Shown here: positions 47,250 to 54,473 of the stretch, in pieces
How the letters are laid out: each line of letters begins with the position of its first letter
Numbering within the stretch: the first letter of the stretch is position 1
DNA from: Microcoleus vaginatus WJT46-NPBG5
GTDB taxonomy: Bacteria; Cyanobacteriota; Cyanobacteriia; Cyanobacteriales; Oscillatoriaceae
Length of the DNA: 64,000 nt
Direction: 5' to 3'
NCBI GenBank assembly: GCA_019359355.1
Contig: JAHHHM010000020.1
Location: 1 to 64,000 of the forward strand
Program-made: the position numbers and the translations under genes
Notes under the pieces: generated by a model
Database searches by the model: none
The model's input: the letters and a program-made list of their open reading frames with translations, nothing else
Told to the model about the DNA's origin: nothing

Positions 47250-50200
47250 TTAACAAAGGTCGTGAGTGTTTTCAATTCTAAACGATTTATGTTCAACTGT
47301 GATCAATCGCTGCGGCATAGCAATTTCATAACCTTGTGCATAATCTACGCCCAAACTTTTAATTTTCTCCAAAATAATCTCATCAGACACAAACTCTGCA
47401 ATTGTTTTCAATCCCATCACATGACCGATTCGGTTAATCGCTTCCACCATAACAAAATCAATCGGATCATCTGCGATATCTTTAACAAAATTACCATCAA
47501 TTTTTAAGTAATCCACCGGCAAGCTTTTGAGATAAGCAAAAGAAGACATTCCGGTTCCAAAATCATCCAAAGCGAATTGGCAACCTAAAGCCTTCAGTTT
47601 GCGAATCAGTTGTGCCGCCTTGGTTAAGTTGGAAATTGCCACGGTTTCAGTAATTTCAAAACAAATCGCCTGGGGGGGAATTTGATACCTTGAAAACTGC
47701 TCTTGCAAGAAATCTATAAATTCGTCATCATTCACACTCGCACCCGACAAATTGATGGCATAAAGATTATGGGGTTGATCTTTTCTCCACTGTCCTGAGT
47801 CAGGCAATACTGTTCCGTGATCAATGACATAAGACAAATAAGCAAAAAACTTGTTAATTACCCAGCGATCAATCATTGGCATTAAGTTATATCGCTCAGC
47901 TGCCGGCAAAAAAGCCATCGGTGGAATCAAGTCCCCGTTTTCTGCCACCAAACGCAGCAGCACTTCGTAATGCTCTCCAACTTCGCAACCAACCGTCAGA
48001 CAGCTAATCGGTTGAAAATACAGACAGAACTGATGCTCCTCACAAGCTTTATTAATCCGCGTCACCCACTGCGCCTCGCTGCGCTGCTGAGCTACGTCAC
48101 TATCATTTGGTTGGTAAATATGCACGCGATTTCGCCCTCGATTTTTAGCGGCATAGCAAGCTGCATCCGCCGCACTTAGCAAACTAGCTGTCGAGGTGCT
48201 AGCCGTCAGACTCATCAGCTCGGCATCAATCGTTACCAAACCGATACTTGCACCAATATTAAACGTTTTTTCTTGCCACATAAAGCGGAATTCTTGAAAG
48301 CTTTCGAGCAGCGCCTGGGCAACTTGCCGGCCTTTTTCCAAGGAACATTGCGTTAACAGCAAAGCAAATTCATCGCCACCAAAGCGAGCGAGAATATCCG
48401 TTTTGCGACAGCGAGATTGCAACAGTGAGCTAACTTGGCGCAAAAGTTCATCTCCAGCCACATGACCGCAAGTATCGTTAACAATTTTGAACCGATCCAG
48501 ATCCAAAAAACACAAAGTGTGCTGTTGGTTTTTCGTGGCAGCCGTAACCGCGCATTGCTCTAGATATTGTTCAAATTCCCGACGGTTAGCCAGTCCAGTC
48601 AGCGGATCATGGCTGGCTTGCCAAGATAATTGATGGGCTAAGTTACGCCGTTCCGTGACATCTCGAAACACTAAAACTACGCCTAAAATTTGCCCATCTT
48701 TGGTTTGGATGGGAGCGGCAGAGTCCTCAATCGCGTATTCTTTTCCATGACGAGAAATCAGCAGGGTATGGTTAGCAAGACCCACAATACGCTGCTCTTT
48801 GAAAACGGTTTCTACAGGGTTCTCCGCCGGCTCTCGTGTCGTTTCATCGACAATGCGGAATCTTTCTATTAAAGGCAATCCTTTGGCGTCTTCGATTTTC
48901 CAGCCGGTGAGCTTTTCTGCAATTGGGTTGAGATAAACGATTTTGCCAAGCGCATCAGTCGTGATCACCGCATCCCCAATGGATTGCAATGTAACTTGAG
49001 CAAGTTCCTTTTCTTGAAATAGCGCTTGTTCCATTTGTTTGCGCTCGGTAATATCCTCCAAAATTCCAGCCGTGCGATAAACTTCTCCTACCTCATTTCT
49101 AACGGGAAAGCCTCGCGTCCAGATCCAGCGGACTGAGCCATCGGGTCGGATAATTCGATACTCGTGATTAAAATATTTGCCTTCGCGGTGTTGTTGGCTA
49201 GCAACGATGAAAGATTGCACATCTTCTGGATGGATGCTGTCAAGAAAGGTCTGCGGGTTGTTGTATAGCTCAGCACAGGAACGTCCCCAGATTTTTTCGT
49301 AAGCGGGACTGACGTAAATGATCTGAGTCTTTCCAACTGCGGCGATCCAAAAAACCTCAGTAATATTTTCTGCGAGCTGGCGGAACTTCTCCTCACTTGA
49401 GCGAAGCGCCTCCTCGGTTTTCTGGCGCTCAATGGCTGTAGAGAGGACGTTGGCGACGGCTTGTAAAAAATAAATGTCATCTTGGGTAAACTGCCGGCGA
49501 GAGCGCGTGTGTGCCCCCAGAACCCCAAAAGGCTGATCTCTACCGGCAATTGTCACACTCAAGCCGGCAATCACGCCGTGTTCGTGCAGTAGTGCCGGCC
49601 CTGTAAACCGGGTTTCCTGACGTAAATCTTCGACGATCACCGGCTCACCCACGTGCAGAGTGTAACCGGCTTGAGAATTAAGATCAGCACCCACGGTAGC
49701 GTAACCAACTAGCCCCTGTTGCCACCCGATGCCGGCTCGCAAAAGAAATGCTCCCACCTCTGGCAAGAGTTCCAGCACATTGCAATATTCAACTTGCAGC
49801 GTTTCGGCAACCAGCGCCACTGCTTCATCCATCAGACAGGAAAGCTCAGTGCCGGCCAGTGCTCGCTGACCCACTTGGGCCACCGCTCGCTGCTGCCGCG
49901 CCCTTGTTTCTAATTGTTCATTAGCAAACCTTAACTGTGCAGTTCGCTGGGTTACTCGTCCTTCCAACTCTGCGTTTAAATTGCGAATCTCTTCCTCTGC
50001 CTGCTTGCGCTGTCTGATGTCCTCCACCATGCTAATGGTGTATTGCGGCATTCCTTCAGCGTCTCGGATCGGCGAAACCGTGAGATTGGCCCACACTAGC
50101 TGCCGATCACTGCGGATATATAGCTTTTCTAGCTGGTAGCTGTCGCGTTCCCCTGCCACGAGTTGCCGGTACAATGCCTCATCAGCATCAAGATCATCTG

Positions 50201-50846
50201 GGGCCGTGAATGCTGGGTAACCCATTCCGCGCAGCTCGCTCTCGCTGTAACCTAGCATCTGCTGGAATGCGGAGTTTGTCTCTAAAATCTGCCCTTCCAA
50301 GTCTCCCAGGGCGATGCCAATCGCGGCGGACTCAAAAATTGAGCGGAAGCGGGCTTCACTCTCTCGCAACGCCTCCTCTGTGCGCTGATGCGCTTGGATT
50401 TCTTGAGCCAACTTTTCGTTAGCTGCTCTTAATTGGGCGGGACTCGCCAGTGCTAGTGCTTGAGGGATCAGGGGAAACAGTGCCACAGCCGTGTACAGGG
50501 AAACGGTCGCTGTAACCGCTTTAATGCCACCCGACAGCCAGTAACTTGGATGCCACAGCGTCCAGACTTCCATTAGATGGGTCGTGCCACAAGCAGCGAT
50601 GAATGCCCCAAACAGCCAAAACATCGCGGAAAAAGGCACATCGCTCCGCTGGCGGACAAAGTAGCCGAGGCTGAGGGCGATTATATAATAGGCCAGGGCA
50701 ATCAGAAAATCTGACAGGAAGTGTACCGCCACTAACTCTGGCTTCCAGAGATAGCAGTGCCCGTGGGGCATCAAAGTCGAGGCTAAGTAAGAACTGAACG
50801 GCATCAACGGGTTTAAGAAAAAAGGGTAGTTTAGGAGTTCCAACAT
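47250..50846 (-). CDS. Predicted ethylene receptor with PAS, GAF, GGDEF and EAL domains
   Basis: A 1198-residue membrane sensor. The N-terminal three-helix domain (about 30-135) matches the plant ethylene-binding domain: HFLSDFLIALAYYIIALSL and FGAFIAACGTTHLMEVWTLW. Asp46, Cys86 and His90 correspond to ETR1 Asp25, Cys65 and His69, the last two binding Cu(I). Then come PAS (about 165-285), a coiled coil, GAF (about 305-480), two PAS domains (about 485-740), GGDEF with intact RFGGDEF (about 750-920) and EAL (about 930-1190; EVLLR, DDFGTG). It should link ethylene or a similar ligand to cyclic di-GMP. ATG 50846 is chosen over TTG 50855. Confidence 0.9.
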   Translation of the reverse strand: MLELLNYPFFLNPLMPFSSYLASTLMPHGHCYLWKPELVAVHFLSDFLIALAYYIIALSLGYFVRQRSDVPFSAMFWLFGAFIAACGTTHLMEVWTLWHPSYWLSGGIKAVTATVSLYTAVALFPLIPQALALASPAQLRAANEKLAQEIQAHQRTEEALRESEARFRSIFESAAIGIALGDLEGQILETNSAFQQMLGYSESELRGMGYPAFTAPDDLDADEALYRQLVAGERDSYQLEKLYIRSDRQLVWANLTVSPIRDAEGMPQYTISMVEDIRQRKQAEEEIRNLNAELEGRVTQRTAQLRFANEQLETRARQQRAVAQVGQRALAGTELSCLMDEAVALVAETLQVEYCNVLELLPEVGAFLLRAGIGWQQGLVGYATVGADLNSQAGYTLHVGEPVIVEDLRQETRFTGPALLHEHGVIAGLSVTIAGRDQPFGVLGAHTRSRRQFTQDDIYFLQAVANVLSTAIERQKTEEALRSSEEKFRQLAENITEVFWIAAVGKTQIIYVSPAYEKIWGRSCAELYNNPQTFLDSIHPEDVQSFIVASQQHREGKYFNHEYRIIRPDGSVRWIWTRGFPVRNEVGEVYRTAGILEDITERKQMEQALFQEKELAQVTLQSIGDAVITTDALGKIVYLNPIAEKLTGWKIEDAKGLPLIERFRIVDETTREPAENPVETVFKEQRIVGLANHTLLISRHGKEYAIEDSAAPIQTKDGQILGVVLVFRDVTERRNLAHQLSWQASHDPLTGLANRREFEQYLEQCAVTAATKNQQHTLCFLDLDRFKIVNDTCGHVAGDELLRQVSSLLQSRCRKTDILARFGGDEFALLLTQCSLEKGRQVAQALLESFQEFRFMWQEKTFNIGASIGLVTIDAELMSLTASTSTASLLSAADAACYAAKNRGRNRVHIYQPNDSDVAQQRSEAQWVTRINKACEEHQFCLYFQPISCLTVGCEVGEHYEVLLRLVAENGDLIPPMAFLPAAERYNLMPMIDRWVINKFFAYLSYVIDHGTVLPDSGQWRKDQPHNLYAINLSGASVNDDEFIDFLQEQFSRYQIPPQAICFEITETVAISNLTKAAQLIRKLKALGCQFALDDFGTGMSSFAYLKSLPVDYLKIDGNFVKDIADDPIDFVMVEAINRIGHVMGLKTIAEFVSDEIILEKIKSLGVDYAQGYEIAMPQRLITVEHKSFRIENTHDLC

Positions 50847-51172
50847 CGAAGGCAACCCAGACTTGGGGTTGAGACAAATTTCTGGTTTTAGCCGGCCCGT
50901 GACAGCATTTCAGGCTTTGAGAAGACTTTTTTTAAGGCTGACTTCTTGAAAACAAAGATTGTAAAAATCCAGTTTTTGGGGAAAATTTAGTTTTTTCTAC
51001 ACCCAACTTGATAATATAATTGATAGCTTATTATATCTTCTGTTTTTCAAAGCTGGCTGGCTATCAATTAGCCGGTTCACGCTAGTTTAAAAAGCTTGCA
51101 GGTTTAATCGTTGATATCAATATCAATGTTAGCCGCCGGAATCGAAGCGGTAGAAGAGGTTAAAACTGAATC
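50847..51172. other. Divergent promoter region of 326 bases
   Basis: It separates the ethylene receptor-like gene and the PfkB kinase gene. It is A/T-rich, with several TATAAT-like hexamers near 51010-51040. No supported gene. Confidence 0.4.
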
Positions 51173-52042
51173 GTGAGCGCACAATTGGCTAGGCACGGAC
51201 TGTTCGTAGGATTATCAACTCTGGACTTAGTCTATTTAGCGGCAAGTCCTCCTCACAATAATCAAAAAATTGTAGCCTCCGATTACATGGTTGCTGCCGG
51301 CGGACCCGCTACCAATGCCGCCATAACTTTCAGCCACTTGGGCAATCAGGCAACATTACTGGGGGTTGTGGGGGTTCATCCAATTGCCCAACTAATTCGC
51401 GCTGATTTAGAAAGTTATGGCGTAAAAATTGTAGATTCCGATCCCAACCGGATTGATCCTCCAGCAATTTCTTCGATTATTGTTACTCAAAGCACTGGGG
51501 ATCGGGCTGTGGTTTCTATCAATTCCCTTAAGTCACAAATTGCTGCTGAACAACTGCCGGCAATAGATTTGGACAACGTTAATATTATTTTAATCGATGG
51601 CCATCAAATGGCAATAAGCAAAGTCATTGCTCAGCAAGCTAAATCAAAAAATATCCCAATTGTGATTGATGGAGGAAGCTGGAAAGCTGGGGTTGAAGAA
51701 GTATTACCTTTAGCCAACTATGTAATTTGTTCAGCAAACTTTCATCCTCCTAATTGCTGCCGGCCTGAAGAAGTTTTTGCCTATCTTAGAGAGATGGGAA
51801 TTCCTCACGTCGCGATTACTCACGGTGGAAAATCAATTCAATATTCCAGTATTGACGAGATCGGTGAAGTGCCGGTGCCGGCAGTTAATCCTGTAGATAC
51901 CCTGGGTGCCGGTGACATTTTTCACGGCGCGTTTTGCCACTACATTCTCCAAGAGAATTTTACCAACGCCCTAACATTATCCGCGAAAGTTGCCTCCCGT
52001 TCCTGTCAATTTTTTGGCACCCGCCAGTGGATGAAGGAATAA
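51173..52042 (+). CDS. PfkB-family (ribokinase-like) sugar kinase
   Basis: A 289-residue carbohydrate kinase. The N-terminal signature region reads AAGGPATNAAITFSHLGNQ, and the C-terminal PfkB signature NPVDTLGAGDIFHGAF carries the catalytic Asp. The substrate is unknown; ribose, adenosine and fructose-type substrates are all possible. The start is GTG, with AGAGG somewhat upstream. It stands alone between two signalling genes. Confidence 0.9.
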   Translation: MSAQLARHGLFVGLSTLDLVYLAASPPHNNQKIVASDYMVAAGGPATNAAITFSHLGNQATLLGVVGVHPIAQLIRADLESYGVKIVDSDPNRIDPPAISSIIVTQSTGDRAVVSINSLKSQIAAEQLPAIDLDNVNIILIDGHQMAISKVIAQQAKSKNIPIVIDGGSWKAGVEEVLPLANYVICSANFHPPNCCRPEEVFAYLREMGIPHVAITHGGKSIQYSSIDEIGEVPVPAVNPVDTLGAGDIFHGAFCHYILQENFTNALTLSAKVASRSCQFFGTRQWMKE

Positions 52043-52112: not shown

Positions 52113-54161
52113 TTAACCCTTCGGCATCAGCGGCAACGTCACAGTAAACGTCGTTCCTACCCCAACCTTACTCGCCACAGAAATTTCACCCTCGTGTAAA
52201 TCTACACACCGTTTGACAATTGCCAACCCTAACCCCGTCCCAGCGATATTGCCAACATTTTTAGCTCGATGAAAAGACTCAAATAGATGAGTGATATCCT
52301 CGTCTGGGATACCAATGCCTTGATCTTTAATCAGAAAAATTGCCTTGCACTCCTGACAAATCAGTTCCAATCGAACGTCTCCCCCTTCAGCAGAATATTT
52401 AAGCGCGTTCGAGAGCAAATTGCTGAGAATTTGCCGCAGTAACTTTTCGTCCATACAAGCCGGCACATCAGATGTGGTGAGAATATTTGGGTGAATTTCT
52501 ACAAAATGAATCTTGTGTTTGCTTGTCACGCAAAGCTGGATTTCCGCCACCAACTGACTGCAAAACTGTGTTAAGTTCAGCGGCAGGGGATTGAAAGGAA
52601 GTTTGCCGGCATCTGTACGACCGATAAACAAAACATCTTCTAACAATTCTGTCATATTAACGGCAGAAACTTGAATTCGCTGGATGTATTCGAGGAGTTT
52701 TTTGTCAGAATTTTCAAAAGGCTCTTGTTGCAGGTAATATTCCAGCAAATCAGCAGAAGAAAGTACAGTAGTCAAGGGAGTACGGAACTCATGGGAAACC
52801 ATCGAAATCAAGCGATTTTTAAGTTCGCCCAGTTCTTTTTCCTTAGCAAGTGCTTTTAGCGTTTCTTCTTCAGCTCGCTTGCGCTCCGTAATGTCTATGC
52901 CTACAGCTTGATACTCAATAAAGCGACCCAAAGAGTCAAAAATGGCGCGACCTGTCCAATGTTGAGTGCGAACTTCTCCTGAAGGCAAAACGACTTTTTG
53001 TTCCCGAGAAATAAGGGGATATTTAAAAGGGTCACGCTCAATATCAGGAATCAGCAGCACAAGAGATTTATCTCTCAAATTTTCTTGAGTTACGCCGAAA
53101 TAGCGACAGTAAGCATCATTAACAAAAGTCACCGTGCCATCCAGCGCAAACCGACAAATAAGTTCAGTTTGATCCTCAACAATAGCCCGATAGCGAGCCT
53201 CACTTTCCCGGAGGGCTGACACAGCCTTTGAGCGCTCTTGGTGCAGCGAAATAGCCGCTGCTGCTGCCCGTAAAAACTCAACTTCCGAGGTAGACCAAGC
53301 TTCTGAACAATCGCAATGTTCAAAGCCGAGACAACCGAAATACTCCCCATTAACTGTTAGAGGCAAAAGCAAAATTTTGAGAATACCCAGTGACTCTAAA
53401 ATGAGACGTTCTTCCGGGGGAAACTCAGAGGCAGAACCCACAATAATCTCGCCTTTTGCTAGCATTTCTACCCACCGAGGAGGAAACAGGCATAAAGTAG
53501 GAAATAAATGATTAGAATCTTTTATTTTGATTTTTTCTGCTTGACTTTTTTCTTCATTAGCCCACCATTGAGTACAGACAATCGGCGCTTGATGAGTTTC
53601 CTCTCCTAACAGAGCACCTGCCGCATTCCAGCAGTTTTCGACGATATAAACACGGCCGGCACCAGCAGTTTTTCCCAGCAGTTCTACAATTTGGTTGTAG
53701 CAGTTGTCATCACTGTTAAAAGCTAGCAACCGGCGCTGTACTTCCACCAGTGCTGCCAAATGTTGGTTTGCTTGACTTAATTGTTGCGTTAATTGCCGTG
53801 AACGCAAACCGGCTCTCACCCGCGCCAGTAACTCCTCAGGTTCAATGGGTTTAGTCAGAAATTCATCTGCCCCAGCATCTAGTCCTCTGACGCGATCAGA
53901 CACCTGTTCCCGTGCGGTTAGCAGAATCACAAAGGTTCTTGCTAGTTCTGGATTAGTTTTCACCCGCCGGCATACTTCCAACCCATCAAGACGTGGCATC
54001 ATCCAATCGCAAATCATTAAATCGGGATGCCATCTGTGTACTTCAAGTAAAGCTTCTTCTCCATCACCTACGACCCTAACTTCACAATTTTCATCTTCAA
54101 GTAAGTGCCGCAATACTAACTGAACGGTTAAATCATCATCAATAACTAATATTTTAGGCAT
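52113..54161 (-). CDS. Hybrid sensor kinase: REC-GAF-PAS-HisKA-HATPase
   Basis: A 682-residue cytoplasmic protein starting with a receiver domain (about 1-125; phospho-acceptor Asp in DLMICDWMMPRLDG), then a GAF domain (about 140-310), a PAS domain (about 320-450), a histidine-kinase dimerisation helix with SHEFRTPL, and an ATPase with NLLSNALKYS, DQGIGIPDED and GTGLGLAIVKR. It is probably a phosphorelay kinase whose own receiver is set by a partner. I start at ATG 54161 (MPKILVIDDD); the open frame runs 102 codons further upstream only because a 51-bp repeat keeps it open. Confidence 0.93.
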   Translation of the reverse strand: MPKILVIDDDLTVQLVLRHLLEDENCEVRVVGDGEEALLEVHRWHPDLMICDWMMPRLDGLEVCRRVKTNPELARTFVILLTAREQVSDRVRGLDAGADEFLTKPIEPEELLARVRAGLRSRQLTQQLSQANQHLAALVEVQRRLLAFNSDDNCYNQIVELLGKTAGAGRVYIVENCWNAAGALLGEETHQAPIVCTQWWANEEKSQAEKIKIKDSNHLFPTLCLFPPRWVEMLAKGEIIVGSASEFPPEERLILESLGILKILLLPLTVNGEYFGCLGFEHCDCSEAWSTSEVEFLRAAAAAISLHQERSKAVSALRESEARYRAIVEDQTELICRFALDGTVTFVNDAYCRYFGVTQENLRDKSLVLLIPDIERDPFKYPLISREQKVVLPSGEVRTQHWTGRAIFDSLGRFIEYQAVGIDITERKRAEEETLKALAKEKELGELKNRLISMVSHEFRTPLTTVLSSADLLEYYLQQEPFENSDKKLLEYIQRIQVSAVNMTELLEDVLFIGRTDAGKLPFNPLPLNLTQFCSQLVAEIQLCVTSKHKIHFVEIHPNILTTSDVPACMDEKLLRQILSNLLSNALKYSAEGGDVRLELICQECKAIFLIKDQGIGIPDEDITHLFESFHRAKNVGNIAGTGLGLAIVKRCVDLHEGEISVASKVGVGTTFTVTLPLMPKG

Positions 54162-54227
54162 ATCAAACGAATGGTTTATCAAAGCTATTATTGTCTTTTT
54201 TCTTAATCTTTTGAAAAAATTTAATAA

Positions 54228-54329
54228 ATCAAGCTTAAGTATAGTTGTGTAGGGTATTGAAATAAAAACAAATAAAAAATCAAGCTTAAGTATAGTTGTG
54301 TAGGGTATTGAAATAAAAACAAATAAAAA
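54228..54329. repeat. Exact tandem duplication of a 51-bp unit
   Basis: The unit beginning ATCAAGCTTAAGTATAGTTG occurs twice without a mismatch (54228-54278 and 54279-54329), upstream of the hybrid kinase. Because 51 is a multiple of three, it adds a repeated 17-residue block to an otherwise non-coding upstream frame. Confidence 0.92.
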
Positions 54330-54473
54330 ATTAAATTTTGAAAAATTAGTTTTTAAACCTGTTAAAAATTCAAGAGTTACAATCAGCCTGTATTGATAAA
54401 TTCGACAACCTAGTTTAGTAGAAAACTCGCTGATTAAAGTAAAATCCTTCTCACAATCACTTGGCATCCCCAG

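Follow-up and report, generated by a model that had tools for sequence, protein, structure and literature searches.

A Microcoleus vaginatus protein that joins an ethylene-binding-type membrane domain to GGDEF and EAL domains, and its recurrence in cyanobacteria

Can a receptor domain of the kind that binds ethylene in plants set cyclic di-GMP levels directly in a bacterium? The question is raised by a gene at 47250..50846 on the minus strand of the window, by which we mean the whole 64,000-nucleotide stretch of Microcoleus vaginatus WJT46-NPBG5 DNA that was analyzed. Its open reading frame (ORF) starts with ATG at 50846, the stop codon ends at 47250, and the 1198 amino acid product has the order EBD-PAS-GAF-PAS-PAS-GGDEF-EAL, where EBD stands for ethylene-binding domain; residue numbers are those of this window protein unless ETR1 is named, and all of its features lie on the minus strand. 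A sequence-only reading of the same DNA had proposed an EBD fused to GGDEF and EAL enzymes, and Pfam places these domains in the ORF with scores over their cut-offs. The EBD (residues 38-133; 50448..50735) matches ETR1_N (PF25487) with E 4.8e-40 and 136 bits against a curated cut-off of 27, GGDEF matches with E 5.9e-42 and EAL with E 2.5e-62, scores that exclude chance, and PAS and GAF are matched as well. HisKA and HATPase are absent from the protein in the Pfam search, and GGDEF and EAL occupy the output position. We favor the explanation, to which we assign a probability of about 0.55, that this is a membrane-anchored one-component receptor in which an EBD with a Cu(I) site binds a small ligand and a GGDEF-EAL module like that of Pseudomonas aeruginosa RbdA sets cyclic di-GMP.

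The ligand site is central to this explanation. Seven residues of ETR1 were reportedly found essential by Wang et al. in 2006, namely D25, Y32, I35, P36, I62, C65 and H69. In an alignment of the window EBD to AtETR1, which has the expected letter at all seven positions, Asp46 (50709..50711) falls on D25, and Cys86 and His90 (Cys86 to His90, 50577..50591) fall on C65 and H69, which bears out the three residues and the 40- and 4-residue spacings picked out in the sequence-only reading. Tyr53, Ile56 and Ile83 are conserved in addition to the three residues first named, and the site reads DYIAICH, a match at six of the seven positions; the exception is Ala57 (50676..50678) at the position of Pro36, which leaves the full AtETR1 set incomplete. 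AlphaFold2, run on 55 aligned EBDs, gave helices at 36-66, 73-98 and 102-132 and a fourth, linker helix, with a mean pLDDT of 87.8 and lower values of about 50-60 for residues 1-30. Asp46 lies within helix I of this model, and Cys86 and His90 both lie within helix II of the three rather than outside the second membrane helix, the placement on which the earlier proposal had been staked. Cys65 and His69 of ETR1 have been linked to copper binding and are given alongside I35, P36 and I62 among the essential residues (PMC6586836), and the need for all seven in ethylene recognition was defined through alanine scanning (PMC11819568). CpETR1A P36L is listed with receptor mutations termed gain-of-function (PMC8012379). 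For a solved EBD structure to serve in comparison, sequence search gave no match at E<=1 and Foldseek nothing at E<=0.001. In a search of plasmid records, none of the 15 matches listed starts before query residue 110, and so none of these 15 covers the EBD core.

At the output end, the GGDEF domain (residues 744-907; 48126..48617) contains RKTDILARFGGDEF (48366..48407), which by motif match holds the inhibitory-site RxxD and the active-site GGDEF; the GGDEF motif is thus intact, as had been claimed, and the same is true of the motifs of the EAL domain (residues 930-1178; 47313..48059). The latter matches seven of the seven catalytic patterns tested (EVLLR, NLSG, EITET, DDFG, KID, AEF and QGY), and both orthologs described below match them equally and also keep GGDEF and RxxD. 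By alignment, the closest solved structure to the output is RbdA (PA0861; PDB 5xgb; E 3.7e-142), likewise a PAS-GGDEF-EAL protein. A PAS-GGDEF-EAL construct of RbdA had cyclase activity and GTP-enhanced phosphodiesterase activity, and the tandem alone had phosphodiesterase activity only (PMC7825114). Whether synthesis or breakdown prevails is not readable from the GGDEF motif alone; because the RbdA tandem by itself acted only in breakdown, the similarity leads us to a mild preference for net cyclic di-GMP breakdown by the window enzyme.

The architecture recurs widely. Pfam finds ETR1_N in 90 of 386 genomes of the phylum, and the 153 distinct EBD ORFs among the stronger matches listed and in the window genome comprise 141 with a kinase, 4 with GGDEF, 3 with GGDEF and EAL, and 5 with no output found, some of these loci covering only 1.5 kb downstream. 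In a set of 60 genomes of relatives, window genome included, the fusion occurs in at least 12 genomes. A larger set of 253 distinct EBD proteins, which adds loci from the relatives and the 74 distinct EBDs found at 80 named loci, is biased, as 20 regions were chosen partly as fusion-like or for cyclic di-GMP neighbors and the 80 loci were those with the closest resemblance to EBDs of cyclic di-GMP proteins; it contains 224 kinases, 13 proteins with GGDEF and EAL, 5 with GGDEF and 11 with none of these. In this biased set, therefore, 18 of 253 EBD proteins, from at least 12 genera by genus codes, are EBD-cyclic di-GMP fusions. Uniqueness of the window design is ruled out, and the contrast drawn in the sequence-only reading with a kinase-output receptor, as if the window protein were singular, does not survive. 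Pfam confirms ETR1_N together with GGDEF, with or without EAL, in six sister proteins (L285, L249, L041, L154, L252 and L202), the fusions beyond these having been called with profiles built in this analysis; named carriers are Nostoc punctiforme NIES-2108 (L285), Nostoc sp. WHI (L249), Nostoc sp. NMS4 (L274) and Aphanothece sp. CMT-3BRIN-NPC111 (L252).

Within the 18 fusions, all seven ETR1 residues are kept in 12, and the six non-canonical members are the window gene and its two orthologs (Ala36), L202 (Ser36), and L201 and L203, which are more altered. The 13 that bear EAL have GGDEF in every case, RxxD in 12 and all seven EAL patterns in 7, with substitutions at EAL motif residues in L252 and L201; the five without EAL read GGDEF once, GGEEF once, and GGEEM or GGEEI three times. 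Because the motif residues vary in this way, output activity and direction probably differ between members. On an EBD tree of 242 rows and 132 columns, the cyclic di-GMP versus kinase label needs 12 changes, against an average of 17.5 for shuffled labels, and only 3 output changes are forced by well-supported branches, 132 columns being few enough to resolve 242 rows poorly. Several origins of the fusion are likely on this evidence, though not proved. The spacing from EBD to PAS, taken from a simple pattern that found a first PAS in 10 of the 18 fusions, is 67 residues in six of the ten (the window gene, its two orthologs, L252, L202 and L201) and 74 in one further; in EBD-PAS kinases 67 and 106 are the joint commonest spacings, with 14 each. 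Since the 67-residue spacing is common to fusions and kinases, the input module looks interchangeable between outputs.

Some EBD kinases lie next to cyclic di-GMP genes without being fused to them. Of 184 EBD-kinase genes for which the downstream sequence extends 700 nt or more, 18 have a GGDEF/EAL gene within 350 nt downstream on the same strand, and 17 of these 18 neighbors carry a receiver domain; this first count (nominal p 0.03) included 5 loci chosen for such neighbors. At L208 (1161-3269, minus strand, with its upstream ORF), L209, L241 and L124, an EBD histidine kinase gene overlaps or abuts a gene for a response regulator (RR) of the form RR-PAS-GGDEF-EAL, and pairs of this type likely connect EBD sensing to cyclic di-GMP as two-component systems, judging from their domains. 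At L048, L053, L064, L067, L085, L102, L105 and L128, in several genera, a hybrid kinase with EBD and GAF/PAS domains is followed by an RR-GGDEF-EAL gene. Independently, a diguanylate cyclase gene has been reported grouped with GeiEtr2 of Geitlerinema (PMC6682694).

Is the altered membrane domain of the window protein maintained? Two congeners (G387, 93% identity; G386, 92%) carry orthologs of the window gene, again at the rsmI/pfkB locus, and Ala at position 36 is common to all three. In the G387 ortholog (L198) a stop codon removes only the C-terminal tail past the EAL domain. The window genome has eight EBD proteins at eight loci, and two only keep all seven ETR1 residues. Each of these eight was compared, over the EBD only, with its best match in each of the two congeners, every dN/dS value being based on a small count of 4 to 20 nonsynonymous changes. 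The window-gene EBD has a dN of 0.018 against both congeners, the lowest of the eight (others 0.031-0.096), and dN/dS of 0.07 and 0.13 with 4 nonsynonymous changes per comparison. The two paralogs with all seven residues have dN/dS of 0.10-0.18, the one in which Glu/Gln replaces Asp25 and Gly replaces Cys65 has 0.24 and 0.29, and the remaining four have 0.16-0.41, one of them being the L160/L298 pair, whose downstream parts are unlike and which may not be true orthologs. The Ala-bearing EBD thus looks to be under constraint like that of an intact EBD and seems maintained, with a ligand preference that may be altered. Decay of this EBD is unlikely from the dN/dS values, though the counts are small. 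The L160 and L161 paralogs of the window genome have lost Pro36, which their best matches in both congeners retain, so this site has been altered at least twice in the genus. In three congeners an EBD (L162, at G000:C10; L217; L307) has the copper Cys replaced by Gly and Asp25 by Glu/Gln, and at L162 and L217 an RR-GGDEF gene follows.

Several observations weigh against the receptor explanation that we favor. The first is Ala57 itself, at a position where AtETR1 requires its proline according to the alanine scan; among the 253 distinct EBDs, this column holds proline in 231 cases, alanine and serine in 8 each and another residue in 6, and all seven residues are kept in 217. One canonical paralog has a dN/dS of 0.105, below the 0.126 of the window gene in the same congener. 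The Cys-less EBD retained beside an RR-GGDEF gene in the same genus means that a copper site is not needed for EBD-like domains to be kept. For gene neighbors there was no significant excess after removal of the regions chosen as fusion-like or for such neighbors: 13 of 175 EBD kinases had one (p 0.15), compared with 5 among 145 other kinases in the window genome, and the figure was 11 of 169 on leaving out the window genome (p 0.30), the control having used a different distance rule and 150 of 187 candidate kinases having been scored. The pairs are real in several genera, but they have not been shown to be more frequent than for ordinary kinases. Finally, no binding or enzyme data for any EBD-cyclic di-GMP fusion were found in the available open-access literature.

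As a special case of the favored explanation, the protein may be a true ethylene receptor controlling cyclic di-GMP, with Ala57 tolerated in bacteria, a prospect we consider somewhat short of even odds. It gains from the six matching residues, which include the copper-linked Cys and His, from the lowest dN of the eight paralogs and from the 12 canonical fusions, and it loses from the predominance of proline at position 36 and from the fact that Ala is the kind of substitution tested in the AtETR1 scan (PMC11819568). The claim of the sequence-only reading that ethylene sets cyclic di-GMP is accordingly plausible: its domains and intact GGDEF and EAL motifs stand, it is weaker than first stated because Pro36 is replaced by Ala, and its dismissal is countered because the Ala-bearing EBD is well conserved in the genus and most of the fusions examined are canonical. 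Ranking behind this, and to be entertained only tentatively, is a loss of ethylene binding, in which the EBD would be a sensor of Cu(I), redox state or another small molecule, or mainly an anchor or dimerizer, and the PAS and GAF domains would carry the real input. The sharing of Ala57 with both congeneric orthologs and the lost or varying residues in other EBDs of the genus (EYIPLGH, HYISVCH and DYVAFCH) agree with such a loss, whereas the lowest dN, together with the retention of Asp, Tyr, Cys and His, would be unexpected for a mere anchor. We regard as doubtful the broader proposition that cyanobacteria repeatedly joined a Cu(I) olefin-receptor domain, which corresponds in bacteria to the ethylene receptor of plants, to cyclic di-GMP metabolism, by fusion and by some RR gene pairs, and that the window genus fixed a Pro36-to-Ala site recognizing a non-ethylene ligand; its weight was lowered slightly because the neighbor enrichment was not shown. 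An enzymatically silent GGDEF-EAL scaffold that binds cyclic di-GMP or GTP is improbable, for although EAL motif residues are changed in the sister proteins L252 and L201 and 6 of the 13 EAL-bearing fusions miss at least one pattern, all seven are present, along with GGDEF and RxxD, in the window protein and its two orthologs, and RbdA, the nearest relative with a solved structure, has enzymatic activity (PMC7825114).

Under the favored receptor explanation, the three-helix N-terminal domain with its Cu(I)-site residues most likely binds a small ligand at that site, which could be ethylene itself, bound with an affinity that may have changed, or a different Cu(I) ligand. The bound ligand would shift the helix bundle, and the linker helix joining the EBD to PAS 1 (residues 136-164; 50355..50441) would pass the signal to a chain of PAS 1 (residues 172-282; 50001..50333), GAF (residues 335-472; 49431..49844), PAS 2 (residues 509-595; 49062..49322) and PAS 3 (residues 618-730; 48657..48995), which probably contributes a second signal. 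The balance of the GGDEF-EAL dimer would change in response, setting local cyclic di-GMP in one direction or the other, and attachment or motility may follow.

Known systems resemble parts of this design. SynEtr1/UirS of Synechocystis (Slr1212) likewise is described with an N-terminal EBD followed by a GAF, and has been shown to bind ethylene (PMC5812497, PMC10419127); unlike the window protein it has a histidine kinase and response regulators as output, and its GAF is a bilin-binding photoreceptor. The window GAF matches PF01590. GeiEtr1 and GeiEtr2, also of the cyanobacterial EBD family, differ in their kinase output and in conserving all seven residues (PMC6682694). AzoEtr1 of Azospirillum shares EBD and PAS and differs in having a histidine kinase, a separate response regulator and all seven residues; ethylene, which the Azospirillum receptor binds, brought cyclic di-GMP down in a metabolomics screen of this bacterium, by a route stated there to be unknown (PMC11819568). 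For RbdA, the available text mentions no EBD (PMC7825114, PMC8846402) and assigns sensing to a heme PAS (PMC8846402). Synechocystis Cph2 is described as a receptor coupled straight to GGDEF and governing motility (PMC7076178), its signal being light rather than a gas, and MHYT-GGDEF-EAL proteins are described as a membrane sensor with cyclic di-GMP enzymes (PMC8846402), the six-helix MHYT domain being distinct from an EBD. A description of an EBD-GGDEF(-EAL) fusion was not found in the available open-access literature, and it may be mentioned elsewhere; the available text of PMC5812497 and PMC10419127 treats UirS and GGDEF separately though both terms occur, and the word ethylene is absent from the main text of a 2022 survey of the stimuli that act on cyclic di-GMP (PMC8846402). 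The EBD-GGDEF-EAL protein is thus real, well formed, recurrent and apparently uncharacterized.

Around the gene, a Receiver-GAF-PAS-HisKA-HATPase hybrid kinase is encoded at 52113-54467 of the window, with an opposite-strand pfkB-family kinase gene between it and the EBD gene. A 51-bp tandem repeat of 2.2 copies (54222-54331) lies inside the hybrid kinase ORF, towards its 5' end and upstream of the receiver domain, and the true start of this ORF is probably nearer that domain. No sigma-70-like promoter was found within 50600-51400, a result that is uninformative, and among the best 25 of 51 NCBIfam families, matches to the window protein besides PAS/GGDEF domain models fall under their cut-offs.

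For testing ethylene, the fully canonical fusions are better candidates than the window copy. Phototaxis and biofilm in Synechocystis are affected by ethylene (PMC6682694, PMC5812497), and a receptor and enzyme in one protein would make a link between ethylene and cyclic di-GMP directly measurable. The natural Pro36 variants offer a test of the role of this proline in the ethylene site. If ethylene sensing is real, a plant-type receptor domain would be wired, within a single protein, to cyclic di-GMP, the messenger that switches bacterial lifestyle.

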